The position numbers were made by a program, and so were the translations under genes. Positions 55,121 through 60,446 of a stretch of DNA of 60,446 bases are shown here, in pieces. The first letter of the stretch is position 1; every line of letters begins with the position of its first letter. Under the pieces are notes generated by a model that saw nothing but the letters and a program-made list of their open reading frames with translations, made no database searches and was not told the origin of the DNA. Source of the DNA: Polyangiaceae bacterium (GTDB taxonomy: Bacteria > Myxococcota_A > Polyangia > Polyangiales > Polyangiaceae); contig JAKLKA010000030.1 in the NCBI GenBank assembly GCA_023150915.1, forward strand, positions 1-60,446, written 5' to 3'.

Positions 55121-56188
55121 CTACTTCTTCTTCTTGGGTCGCACGCCGTATTGCCCGAGCGCTTGCTCGAGCTCCTCGCGCACCCGTGTGACCAACTCTG
55201 GCGGCTCGATGACCTTGGCGCGCGGCCCCCACTCGAGCACCCAGCTCACGACCGGATTCAGGTTGCCGACCGTCATGCCGAGCCGCACGCCACCGCCGGC
55301 GATGGCTTGCAGCTTCTGCGAGCCGTGAACCTTGCGGGTTCGAAGGTATTCCGCACCCTGGGCGTCGAAGTCGATCACGACCTTGTGCCGGGTTTCGCTG
55401 CGCCAGATCCCGAGCTCACCCTGGAAATAGTCGTCGATCCTGAAGTCGTCGGGCAACGCGAAGCGCTCTTGGGTGGCGCACTCGGTGTCGCGCATGCGGT
55501 CGAGCACGAAGGTCCGGATCTCGTTCTTGGCGACGTGAAGGCCCACGCAGTAGATCGCGTCGCGGTGCAGCACCAGCGCATAGGGGTGGATGGTGATGCG
55601 CTCTTCTTCCTTCTTGGCGGCGCTGCGGTACGAAAGGCCCAAGGGTCTCAGGTCCGAGACCGCCTGGAACAGATCGTCGAGCTCTTCGGTCTTCTCGGCG
55701 TAGTTCTTGGGCGCGAAAGGGAAGTAGAGGAAGCGTTCTTCGAGTCGGGCGTCCGCCAGCCCTGCGTTCGGGCCACGCCCGGGACGCTGGGCGAACGCCA
55801 ACAGCTTGTTGATCGCCAGATCGATCTCTTCGAACAGCGCAGAGCCCCGCATCGGTTCGAACAGCCGGCGCGCCGCCAAGAGCGCATAGGCTTGGGTGCG
55901 GCGCAGCTCGACCTTGCGCGGGGCTTCGCTCTGCCGAATGCGCCACAGCAGTGCGCCGCCGCCTTTCTCTTGGTGGCTCTCGAGGTCGTACTCGCGCTCC
56001 ATCTCTTTCAGGTAGCGGCGCATGGTGCGCGCGCTCACGTCGATGGCGTCGGCGAGCTCGTACAGCGTCAGCCCGCGAGGGTGTCGCGCCAAGAGGTCGC
56101 GCATCACGTCCAGCCGGCGGTGCTGGGTGAATCGACCTTGGGGGCGTCCGAGGGGCCTGGCCAAACGCGAGAGTCTCCGCTGTCGCAA
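55121..56188 (-). CDS. WYL-domain transcriptional regulator
   Basis: 355 residues. The N-terminal helix-turn-helix is LTLYELADAIDVSARTMRRYLKEME, and the WYL domain runs about 150-340 (LSYRSAAKKEEERITIHPYALVLHRDAIYCVGLH, in part), binding nucleotides or ligands in known members. A poly-Lys tail ends the protein. Start TTG 56188 precedes the HTH; GTG or ATG near 56107 would cut into its first helix. WYL regulators often control phage or stress genes, but no such gene is seen nearby. It is divergent from the giant surface protein gene (254-bp gap). Confidence 0.85.
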   Translation of the reverse strand: MRQRRLSRLARPLGRPQGRFTQHRRLDVMRDLLARHPRGLTLYELADAIDVSARTMRRYLKEMEREYDLESHQEKGGGALLWRIRQSEAPRKVELRRTQAYALLAARRLFEPMRGSALFEEIDLAINKLLAFAQRPGRGPNAGLADARLEERFLYFPFAPKNYAEKTEELDDLFQAVSDLRPLGLSYRSAAKKEEERITIHPYALVLHRDAIYCVGLHVAKNEIRTFVLDRMRDTECATQERFALPDDFRIDDYFQGELGIWRSETRHKVVIDFDAQGAEYLRTRKVHGSQKLQAIAGGGVRLGMTVGNLNPVVSWVLEWGPRAKVIEPPELVTRVREELEQALGQYGVRPKKKK

Positions 56189-56442: not shown

Positions 56443-59400
56443 ATGGCGGACCAGAGAGAGCGTGTCGTGCGGCTTTTGACCCGAGGCGCGGGGCTCGCGT
56501 TGTTCGGTTGGGCTGCGCTCGCAGCGCTGCCCAAGCCGGCAGCGGCGCAAGAGCCGGCGTCGTGTCTGAACCCGGACCCATCGGTCTGGCCGAAGCCATC
56601 TCGCCCGTACTTCATGCTGGTGGTCGACACGTCGGGGTCGATGACGGCATGCACCACTCCGCCGACCACTTACCCGACGGAGTGCAACCAAGCTGCCGCG
56701 GGCTACCAGCTGAACTCGTGCGGTTTCGTACCCAACCGTTTGAATGACGCGAAGTGCGCGCTGCGCAGCACCGTCCAGGCGTTCGCGGGCGAAGCCAACT
56801 TTGGGCTCTCCACCTTCGCAAGCTACATCTCCGGGTGCGGCAACGGGGCCTGCGCCAGTGCGTGCGGCACGCCGACCGGCGGTACCTGCGACTTCGACTA
56901 CTACTCGGGCAGTGGCTGTTCGTTCAACGTGTTCCCCGGCGCCACCAACGCATGCGGGAACAATCCATCCTGCTCTGCGGGCGCAGGCCCGGGTGCACCG
57001 AACTGGCCGGAAGGTGCATGGCAGAACGGAGGCAACGTCCTCGTGGGGATGTTGCAGGATCCGACCTGGGGCCCTGCCCCGCCGCCGACCAACGTTACCG
57101 AGATCCTGAAATACTTTGACGGTCAGTGCAACGAGAGCAAGGAGTTGTTCGCTGCCGGCGCAACGCCAATTGCAGGGTCGCTCAGGACTGCGGCCCAGTA
57201 TCTGCGTGCGGGCTGGTCTCTGTGGTCGAACACAAACTACTGTCCGCCGCTGAACTACTCATTTCCGACTCCGCTCACCGCAAGCGACCGCGCTTGCCGA
57301 AGCTTGAACGTCATCCTCGTGACCGACGGCGACGAGAATTGTGCAGTTCCAGGTGGGACGAACGCGCAGAACCTCGCGCAGGCGGTTGCGGCAGCACAGG
57401 ATCTCTACCAGACGGGTGTGACCCTCGGGGGCACCAATTGGAAGGTGAAGACGCACGTCATCAACTTCGCCGGCGGCACCCAGGCAAACACCAACGCCAT
57501 CGCCGCCGCCGGCGGGACCACGACCAGCCTGTTCGCGACGAACGAGACGACGCTCAGCCAGGCGCTGGCCAACATCATCTCCGGCGCGATCAAGCCCGAG
57601 GTCTGCGACAACACCGACAACAACTGCAACGGCTGCACCGACGAGGGCTACGCCCATTATTGCAACCGGCGCACCGACTGCTGCACCGCGGCGCGGGCAA
57701 CGTGCCTGGCACAATACGAAGCGTCGATCACCCCCGGCAACCCAACCGGCGATCTGACCAAGCTGCCCTGCACCACCCAGCCGCAGCAGAGCCAGCCCCT
57801 GAACTGGCTCTGCTACGATCCGAAAGAGCAGTGCAACAGCCAGGACGACAACTGCAACGGCACGGTCGACGAGAACCAGGTCAAGTGCGGCAACCCCCTG
57901 CACTGCCCGTTGCCCGAGACGTGCAACAACGAGGACGACAACTGCGACGGCGTGATCGACAACGCCAGCGGCAGCGGCGTGCCGTTCAGCATCTGCCCCA
58001 ACAACTGCCAGCCCAGCGCCGAGATCTGCGACGGCTGTGACAACGACTGCGACGGCGTGGCGGACGACGGCGTGGTGGCCATTCCCTGCGGTTTCTCGCC
58101 GCCCGCCAACTGCACCGGCACCCAGAGCTGCCTGAGCACCGGCCAGGCCGTGGCGGTGGGCGGCTGCGTGGGCAGCGGCGTGCCCAAGGGCTTCGGCACC
58201 TGCAATGCGGCGCCGCAGAGCGAGATCTGCGACGGCCTGGACAACAACTGCAACGGCACGGTGGACGAGGGCATCGCGCCGACCGCATGCCAGATCCCGG
58301 GGCAGCCCGGCCTGGTCTACAAGGACACCTTCGCCCAGAGCCAGTGCGTCAAGGGCCAGCTGCCCTGCAACGGCACGTGCAGCGGCTGGATCGGTCCCAG
58401 CGCCGAGGTCTGCGACGGCATCGACAACGACTGCGACGGTGTGGTCGACGACGGCGTGCCGGGTGTGAATCAAGACTGCGGCCTGCAGGGCGGCATCTGC
58501 ACCAAGGGCAAGACCGCCTGCGTGGGCGGCGTGCTGGTCTGCCAGGGCGGCACCCCGCCCCAGCCCGAGAGCTGCAACGGCATCGACGACGACTGCGATG
58601 GCAAGGTCGACGACGCCCCGCTCAGCGATCAGCCCGCGGCTCCCGGCTGCTGGAACCTGCCCGCCACTGGTTGCAACCCGGTCTGCACCCACAAGAACGT
58701 CTCGTGGTGCCCGCCCGCCGGCGGCACCTGCACCGGCGTCGGCGGCTTGACCGATCCGTGTCAGGTCGGAACGCTGGCCTGCAACGGCACCCAGGGCTGG
58801 AAGTGTCAGGGCGGCAAGGCGCCCGGGCCCGAGGTCTGCGACGGCGTCGACAACGACTGCGACGGCACCAAAGACGACAACGTCTCGGGCGTGGGCCAAG
58901 ACTGCGGCAGCACCACCCCGCCCTGTGCCCCCGGCAAGACCGCCTGCGTCAACGGCACCATCGAGTGCCAGGGCGGCGTGAAGCCCACCCCCGAGGTCTG
59001 CAACGCCAAGGACGACGACTGCAACGGCACCGTCGACGACGGCCTCGGCCTCGGCGGGCCCTGCGCCGCCGTCTACGACACCACCGCCTATCCCGGTGAT
59101 CGCACCAAGGGCGAGTGCAAGCCCGGCATCAGCAGCTGCGACCCCAAGGGCACCGGCCAGACCATCTGCCAGGGCGGCGTCGGCCCCAGCCCCGAGGTCT
59201 GCGACGGAAAAGACAACGACTGCGACGGACAGACCGACGAGGCCGGCCCCGCTCCCGACGGCATCGACGGCTCTGCCAACCCCAGCGACCCCAACCAGAA
59301 GATCGGCGACGCCTGCGGCATCGACGAGGGTGAGTGCAAGAAGGGCAAGCTGGTCTGCGACAGCGGCAAGTTCGTGTGCGCCAACGGCATTGGCCCGCAG

Positions 59401-60446
59401 CCCGAGCAGTGCGACTGCAAGGACAACGACTGCGACGGCAAGATCGACGAAGACGTGCCCGACGCCGACGCCGGCCAGGCCGCCCTGTGCAGCCCGGGCA
59501 AGAGCTGCGTCGAGGTGGTCGCGGGCGTCTGCCAGTGCGCCGGCCCGTGCAAAGGCGAGATCTGCCCCGGCGGCTCGACCTGCGAGACGGTCAAGAAGAG
59601 CGGCACGGAAGAGACCGGGAAGTTCTGCGTGAACGACCCCTGCGGCGACTGCAGCAAGAAGACCGCGAAGAACACCACCACCGGTGAGGTCGAGTGCGGG
59701 CCCAAGGGCACCGTGACCGCCGGCATTCCCGAGTGCGTGTGCAAGGGCGACTTCGGCTGCCAGAGCCCGTGCTTCAACGTGCAGTGCCCGACCGGTCAGG
59801 CCTGCGCGCCCACCGGCCCGGCCGTGGGCACCTGCCAGCCCCAGAACAACTGCAACTTCTTCGGCTGCAAGACCGGCGAGCTGTGTAGCAACAGCGCCTG
59901 CGTCGACGACCCCTGCGACCCCAACACCTGCAAGGCCGACGAGGTCTGCAAGCCCAACGAGAGCTTCACCGAGCCGCGCTGCGTGAAGACCTGCGCCGGT
60001 GTCACCTGCCAGGCCGGCGAGCAGTGCCTCGAGGGGGAGTGCAAGGCCACCGGCTGCGGCGTGGACTGCCCCGCCGGCCAGGTGTGCTCGCCCTCGGGCG
60101 ACGCCTCTTACGCCTGCGAGCCCAACAAGTGCACGGCCGACGGCGGGCTCGCCTGCTCCAACGGCGCCTGGTGCGATCCGACCACCGGCGCCTGCGGCAA
60201 CGACCCCTGCACCGGCGTGAAGTGCCCCGCCGGCCAGCAGTGCGTCCTGGGCGACTGCCAGTGGGCCCCCGAAGGCGGAACCGATGGCGGCGGCGGCTCC
60301 GACGCCGGCGGCGCCGGCGGCTCGGGCGCCAAAGACGGCTCCGCAGGCGATGGCGGCACCTCGGGCTCGGCCGGCAGCGCCGGCTCGAGCGAAGCCCCCA
60401 AGGGCGTCTGGGGCCTGGCCACCGGCGGCGGCGGCTGCGCCTGCCG
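56443..60446 (+). CDS. Giant surface protein: von Willebrand A domain, 11 MopE-type repeats, Cys-rich modules and MYXO-CTERM-like end (3' end missing)
   Basis: At least 1334 residues; the frame runs off the window. A signal peptide (1-36) is followed by a von Willebrand A domain with the metal site DTSGS (Asp62, Ser64, Ser66) and VTDGDEN (Asp295). From about 387 to 1005 are 11 copies of a CDGxDNDCDGxxDDG-type unit like the copper-binding MopE repeats, each in a ~50-residue Cys-containing spacer. Then come small Cys-rich units (CPAGQQCVLGDC-like), an Asp/Gly/Ser linker and, at the edge, GVWGLATGGGGCAC, which looks like the start of a MYXO-CTERM sorting signal; the hydrophobic helix and basic end would lie just outside. 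The ATG has GAGGG 7 nt upstream. Probably a surface adhesin or metal-binding protein. Confidence 0.88.
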   Translation, partial: MADQRERVVRLLTRGAGLALFGWAALAALPKPAAAQEPASCLNPDPSVWPKPSRPYFMLVVDTSGSMTACTTPPTTYPTECNQAAAGYQLNSCGFVPNRLNDAKCALRSTVQAFAGEANFGLSTFASYISGCGNGACASACGTPTGGTCDFDYYSGSGCSFNVFPGATNACGNNPSCSAGAGPGAPNWPEGAWQNGGNVLVGMLQDPTWGPAPPPTNVTEILKYFDGQCNESKELFAAGATPIAGSLRTAAQYLRAGWSLWSNTNYCPPLNYSFPTPLTASDRACRSLNVILVTDGDENCAVPGGTNAQNLAQAVAAAQDLYQTGVTLGGTNWKVKTHVINFAGGTQANTNAIAAAGGTTTSLFATNETTLSQALANIISGAIKPEVCDNTDNNCNGCTDEGYAHYCNRRTDCCTAARATCLAQYEASITPGNPTGDLTKLPCTTQPQQSQPLNWLCYDPKEQCNSQDDNCNGTVDENQVKCGNPLHCPLPETCNNEDDNCDGVIDNASGSGVPFSICPNNCQPSAEICDGCDNDCDGVADDGVVAIPCGFSPPANCTGTQSCLSTGQAVAVGGCVGSGVPKGFGTCNAAPQSEICDGLDNNCNGTVDEGIAPTACQIPGQPGLVYKDTFAQSQCVKGQLPCNGTCSGWIGPSAEVCDGIDNDCDGVVDDGVPGVNQDCGLQGGICTKGKTACVGGVLVCQGGTPPQPESCNGIDDDCDGKVDDAPLSDQPAAPGCWNLPATGCNPVCTHKNVSWCPPAGGTCTGVGGLTDPCQVGTLACNGTQGWKCQGGKAPGPEVCDGVDNDCDGTKDDNVSGVGQDCGSTTPPCAPGKTACVNGTIECQGGVKPTPEVCNAKDDDCNGTVDDGLGLGGPCAAVYDTTAYPGDRTKGECKPGISSCDPKGTGQTICQGGVGPSPEVCDGKDNDCDGQTDEAGPAPDGIDGSANPSDPNQKIGDACGIDEGECKKGKLVCDSGKFVCANGIGPQPEQCDCKDNDCDGKIDEDVPDADAGQAALCSPGKSCVEVVAGVCQCAGPCKGEICPGGSTCETVKKSGTEETGKFCVNDPCGDCSKKTAKNTTTGEVECGPKGTVTAGIPECVCKGDFGCQSPCFNVQCPTGQACAPTGPAVGTCQPQNNCNFFGCKTGELCSNSACVDDPCDPNTCKADEVCKPNESFTEPRCVKTCAGVTCQAGEQCLEGECKATGCGVDCPAGQVCSPSGDASYACEPNKCTADGGLACSNGAWCDPTTGACGNDPCTGVKCPAGQQCVLGDCQWAPEGGTDGGGGSDAGGAGGSGAKDGSAGDGGTSGSAGSAGSSEAPKGVWGLATGGGGCAC

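Follow-up and report, generated by a model that had tools for sequence, protein, structure and literature searches.

Apparently exchanged von Willebrand A heads on near-identical repeat stalks in a putative surface protein family of Polyangiaceae

Introduction

What kind of protein is encoded by the gene that runs off the end of contig JAKLKA010000030.1 of a Polyangiaceae bacterium, and why does the contig end within it? The contig, analysed whole (60446 bp) and referred to here as the window, belongs to an 8.0 Mb draft genome of 295 contigs designated G000; G001 and G002 are genomes of the same genus, and L numbers denote the loci read. Translation from the ATG at 56443 to 60444 on the forward strand is free of stops and yields the 1334 residues (128 Cys, 4 His, and 4 Met) that a preliminary description of this DNA had claimed, and the layout given there, a von Willebrand factor A (VWA) metal-site domain followed by eleven repeats, Cys-rich modules and a GGGGCAC end, is likewise borne out and is not due to chance. 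Some relatives are longer, with open reading frames of up to 1980 codons. The protein is interpreted here, with a probability of roughly 0.6, as a modular adhesin or receptor on the outer surface of Polyangiaceae: exchangeable VWA heads would be carried on an anchored, gene-converted and calcium-stiffened stalk and a lipoprotein would serve as partner; adhesion or recognition is the function that the sequence suggests. Of most interest are the apparent exchange of heads above a homogenised stalk and the constant 4-nt overlap with the lipoprotein gene.

Near-identical stalks beneath different heads

In five of the ten directly adjacent pairs of VWA genes, representing four genera (G001, G022, G064, G029, and G016), the stalks are 98-100% identical, with 97-100% identity at fourfold sites, and the heads of the same pairs are 49-61% identical (39-57% at fourfold sites). 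In four of these pairs the block of shared DNA begins 5 to 23 residues ahead of the first repeat; in G064 the distance is 105 residues. The other border of the block lies 7 to 13 residues beyond where the TGGGG motif begins in three pairs and close to the stop codon in two, and the longest identical runs measure 1846 to 2824 nt. Copies are grouped by genome in the stalk tree but not in the head tree, the exception being G016 in the tree of 32 rows.

A step in the head is also seen between genomes. In a comparison with the DNA of G002, identity of the window is 85% as far as 56807 and 90% beyond 57534, with no blastn match in the stretch between; identities in 40-codon windows are 88 and 82% in the leader, 59, 60, 32, 45, 48, 50, 48, and 60% in the head, and 92 and 92% in the stalk, where the comparison stops at the end of the G002 contig. 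The step, flanked by collinear leader and stalk, separates G000 from both G001 and G002. The heads of G001, G002, G022, and G064, from two genera, form a clade supported at 100/100 with G000 outside it, and a tree holding G000 with G001 and G002 is rejected by the approximately unbiased test (p 4e-6), this group having been named after the identities were seen. The head trees disagree on the nearest relatives of the window, which FastTree (62 heads) places with G082, G127, L134, and a Polyangium group and a careful tree of 32 chosen heads places beside type A at 91/99, yet both group G001 and G002 with G022 and G064 of the other genus and without G000. Type A heads retain 82-92% amino acid identity across G001, G002, and G022 with silent sites saturated, and thus not all heads are variable.

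Within Polyangium, three pairs of second copies show 83-95% identity in the leader, 62-86% in the head and 89-98% in the stalk, and two pairs of first copies 82-100% throughout; the head step is present in four of the five second-copy pairs examined, including G113-G114. Over 10 species pairs, the median fourfold identity is 69% for second-copy heads, 85% for their stalks and 88% for first-copy heads. Because identity drops at silent sites too, the pattern points to imported heads and not to fast protein change alone. In G111 of the Polyangium group, loci L194 and L206, about 40 kb apart, have heads 84% and stalks 77% identical, which may represent the source of an exchanged head.

Hidden paralogy or chimeric assembly may instead account for the step in single cases. 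Applied to the window, this alternative would make the G000 gene another old paralogue or a chimera, whose contig broke in a low-complexity linker. It draws on the finding that eight of the 66 MYXO-CTERM matches in G000 are no more than 300 bp away from a contig end (C161, C5, C248, C73, C184, C19, C45, and C193; L044-L049, L051, and L052), which indicates that linkers alone may break assembly; several G000 contigs have one of their ends in the Gly/Ser-rich linker that immediately precedes this signal. The last 201 bases of the window match no other G000 contig closely, partial matches not exceeding about 180 bases, or 75% identity over more than about 75 bases, and the placement of the window beside type A in the careful tree leaves part of the difference to fast change. 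However, the step falls within the contig and is bordered by a leader and a stalk that both match the genus, the same step occurs in independent Polyangium genomes, and identical stalks under different heads are found in large contigs (3.2 Mb in G001), with single-base differences between the copies. On balance, an artefact of this kind is unlikely.

Two heads over a common stalk may also explain where the contig ends. The two copies in G001 diverge from the last Cys of TGGGGCAC, and the window ends two bases past that Cys, the point at which assembly would be broken by another copy having the same stalk. A second VWA copy is thus predicted in G000, and the sequence past the contig end would hold a partner gene. 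No suffix in common with the window was found at the G000 contig ends that start just upstream of a MYXO-CTERM signal (C161, C5, C248, C73, and eight other stretches). Elsewhere, 11 of 42 loci (L131-L172) have a contig end no more than about 400 bp past the head, and the last 141 nt are identical in all three same-assembly contig pairs ending past two different heads, the outcome to be expected if assembly stops where two heads lead into a common stalk.

Head domain, C-terminal signal and partner gene

The metal-site domain is supported by a predicted structure and by its putative metal ligands, despite Pfam VWA_2 scores below the cut-off of 27 (16.7 bits for the whole protein and 23.5 bits for the head alone). 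The model, built from an alignment of the window head and 42 others from named loci, has a predicted local distance difference test score (pLDDT) of 91.7, and its best matches by VIA-align are VWA domains, including those of the pilus proteins and large adhesins PilB, Mfa5, PitA, SpaC, and LapA (Z 15.9-17.8, 16-20% identity; Z 17.8 for the minor pilin PilB and 17.6 for Mfa5). Residues D, S, S, T, and D of the metal ion-dependent adhesion site (MIDAS) are invariant in all 43 aligned heads, and the modelled head is a VWA fold with a complete MIDAS. The predicted fold is clear, but gives no reading of head function; a PDB profile search with the head returned nothing useful.

The window ends too early to show the helix of a MYXO-CTERM signal, the start of which had been proposed from its last residues. 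This assignment is upheld through full-length relatives, in which the GGGGC[AS]C motif is followed by a hydrophobic helix plus a cluster of Arg residues; of 39 tails compared with TIGR03901, 36 score E <= 0.1. The Cys motif, by a pattern that itself requires GGG and C.C, is present in 41 of 45 VWA genes, the other four being cut by contig ends (two) or carrying variant motifs (two). A cruder rule of hydropathy plus basic residues is passed by 32 of 41 tails, with the window, cut by the contig end, counted as a failure, and the two G001 copies searched as whole proteins score 19.7 and 20.5 bits against the TIGR03901 cut-off of 20. In Myxococcus xanthus, MrtX is described as cleaving MYXO-CTERM signals and sorting the proteins to the surface (PMC11980579, in the part consulted).

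The head profile gives 68 matches at E <= 1e-60 in 34 of the 108 genomes of the family, 22 of the 34 having two or more, and the named loci among the relatives belong to Polyangiaceae and other Myxococcota, P. fumosum DSM 14668 included. Among the 45 VWA genes read, which were picked from the stronger loci, the next gene on the same strand also carries repeats in 38 cases, being a VWA gene in 10 and a different gene in 28. The remaining seven are the window, G002, G018_L097, G072, and G128, all at or near a contig end, and G005_L094 and G129_L203, where no neighbouring repeat gene was found in the stretch read. The different gene has a lipobox, identified by eye, PF11617 repeats in both of the two proteins scanned and a C-terminal domain resembling formylglycine-generating enzyme (FGE), and its start overlaps the stop of the VWA gene by exactly 4 nt in 27 of the 28 junctions (1 nt in the other), suggesting that the two genes may be translationally coupled. 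The two partner copies of G015 are 99.6% identical. A C-type-lectin-like fold is possible for the example partner gene L085:14260-17325 and its 27 homologues; a PDB profile search with the partner C-terminal domain gave nothing under E 0.5. The three genes that come next in G001 (the partner, a thymidine phosphorylase and the end of MetG, all named by eye) have no match in G000 or G002 at E <= 1e-20, in searches of which all but one had a positive control (G001), and the absent MetG match, to which the uncontrolled search bears, suggests that contigs are missing from both bins.

Relation to known systems

By its plan, the nearest known system is TraA/TraB of M. xanthus outer membrane exchange, although it is another family. 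The portions of the literature consulted describe for TraA an exchangeable N-terminal specificity domain, a stalk of Cys-rich repeats, a MYXO-CTERM signal and an overlapping partner gene, and allele shuffling has been proposed there too (PMC6372800, PMC13184517, PMC12288465). A TraA-like recognition receptor would act by homotypic binding of heads between cells, and the lipoprotein would stand in for TraB; the present family shares the Cys-rich repeats (110 Cys in the 939 stalk residues of the window) and, in the tails of relatives, MYXO-CTERM. However, the variable domain of TraA is described as PA14-like and TraB as an outer membrane barrel with an OmpA domain, whereas a VWA head and an FGE-like lipoprotein are found here, together with tandem copies and homogenised stalks; moreover, identity within one head type stays at 80-92% between genera, unlike what is expected of a within-species recognition marker. 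Because the head fold differs, the protein is not assigned to the TraA family, and a receptor of the TraA type is decidedly unlikely.

CglB of M. xanthus gliding is also described as a surface VWA adhesin in a myxobacterium (PMC12288465, in part). The VWA tip pilins and large adhesins named above have the fold in common and differ in stalks and anchors. CglB itself, which we take to be a lipoprotein of the gliding machinery devoid of repeats and MYXO-CTERM, is set apart by this description and not by sequence. In clustered protocadherins, differing recognition parts are combined with shared, gene-converted parts; there is no homology with the present family and the likeness is an evolutionary analogy only. 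Among the titles listed for MYXO-CTERM, VWA, MopE/PF11617, Polyangium, gene conversion and concerted evolution, none describes this family.

Repeat units and their probable ligand

The MopE-like character claimed for the repeats holds, since PF11617 matches the window protein at 137 bits against a cut-off of 27 (E 2.1e-40), with 10 stretches passing individually, and a script count of [DN][DN]C[DN]G..D units finds exactly eleven. In a survey of 465 units from the 45 VWA genes, using a pattern that left positions 5 and 7 free and limited position 13 to D or N, all units have D at position 5, D or N at position 7 and D at position 13, and the consensus of all units is D-x-[DN]-C-[DN]-G-x-x-D. 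Ligands at positions 1, 3, 5, and 9 are characteristic of EF-hand-like and thrombospondin type 3 calcium loops, and the Cys-clamped repeat loops fit calcium because D-x-[DN]-x-[DN]-G-x-x-D matches this spacing.

The repeats bear the Pfam name Cu-binding_MopE, and MopE of Methylococcus capsulatus is reported, in the section of the source consulted, to bind Cu(I) and Cu(II), with a Cu(I) site formed by His132, His203, and kynurenine-130 (PMC3423442); however, none of the 465 units contains His (0 of 11 in the window), the window stalk has just 3 His and no Met, and any free Cys that could bind Cu(I) would more likely be engaged in disulfides outside the cytoplasm, so that a copper-handling surface protein is highly improbable. 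Copper binding by the repeats was rejected on these ligands, there being no His/His/kynurenine site of the MopE type, and calcium is the better supported candidate. Of the surface appendage envisaged in the preliminary description, a single anchored stalk with its head is plausible and the copper is not supported. Searches of PDB chains with the window protein, the stalk profile or another PF11617 protein of G000 gave no match beyond chance, and the stalk, for which the PDB profile search was uninformative and the model had no fold match, is indicated neither as a new fold nor as a known one. Across G000, PF11617 matches number 40, on some thirty frames, and this repeat is a common building block of the surface proteins of this organism.

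Layout of the window gene

The features of the gene and its neighbour are collected in Table 1. The divergent gene, presumably a WYL-type regulator as judged by eye, also adjoins the VWA gene in G001 and is collinear in G002. Cys-rich modules occur in another G000 protein as well (C203:17439-17897, L055), with 52% identity over query residues 1137-1290, and likewise in G001, G002, and G022.

Table 1. Coordinates of features at the right-hand end of the window
Feature	Position	Strand	Basis or remark
Whole gene, as far as the contig reaches	56443..60446	+	1334 codons + 2 bases, no stop
Signal peptide / leader	56443..56550	+	Sequence; 81-86% identity to first-position genes of G001, G002
VWA head	56539..57603	+	Predicted structure, pLDDT 91.7; VWA fold, Z up to 17.8
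MIDAS DxSxS (D62-S66)	56626..56640	+	Completed by T241 (57163-57165) and D295 (57325-57327); all five invariant, 43/43 heads
Head core, proposed exchanged part	56808..57534	+	No blastn match to G002 first-position gene; flanks collinear
Stalk, eleven PF11617 units	57604..59448	+	Pfam and script count
PF11617 unit starts (39 bases each)	57604, 57832, 57922, 58027, 58228, 58411, 58573, 58837, 58999, 59200, 59410	+	
Cys-rich modules	59449..60271	+	Sequence
Gly/Ser/Ala/Asp linker	60275..60400	+	Sequence
GGGGCAC, opening of MYXO-CTERM signal, truncated by contig end	60424..60444	+	Sequence; relatives continue the motif
Divergent WYL-type regulator-like gene, possible regulator	55121..56188	-	Label by eye

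Proposed mechanism and significance

In the proposed mechanism, the head would bind its ligand through a divalent metal, and the repeat loops would take up calcium, making the stalk stiffer. Processing of the C-terminal end by a myxosortase-type enzyme would leave the protein on the outer surface, where the lipoprotein would be its working partner. Gene conversion would keep adjacent stalks identical while heads moved as cassettes between genes or strains, and one cell could then display two head specificities on one scaffold.

Several observations weigh against this interpretation. Stalk homogenisation is not universal, because the stalks of five adjacent Polyangium pairs are just 69-73% identical and those of pairs separated by the lipoprotein gene 69% (G015) and 90% (G033), and the second copies of G112-G113 show no head step. 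The VWA fold serves non-adhesins too, TFIIH subunits and anthrax-receptor VWAs also matching the head at Z 15.8 to 17.4. The FGE-like assignment of the partner is weak (PF03781 at E <= 1 in 14 of 28 C-terminal domains, best 5.2e-5), and the MrtX model NF040593 matches one G000 protein below its cut-off (121.8 against 180 bits, positions 122-235 of 238). Finally, searches of the G000 contigs with the whole protein, the suffix and the partner revealed no second head, tail or partner gene.

A more far-reaching version of the adhesin or receptor interpretation is tentative, and possible rather than probable: tandem receptors with cassette-exchanged VWA heads on a gene-converted, calcium-stiffened stalk, giving two specificities per cell and translationally coupled to a lectin-like lipoprotein, may form a second, TraA-independent contact system, a bacterial parallel to the protocadherins.

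The analysis corrects a copper label inherited from a family name and accounts for the recurrence, in several draft assemblies, of a break at one and the same position in these genes. If the proposed interpretation is true, it would provide a candidate receptor family for Polyangiaceae that is accessible in culturable Polyangium strains, showing how bacteria may vary a binding head while a long scaffold stays constant.

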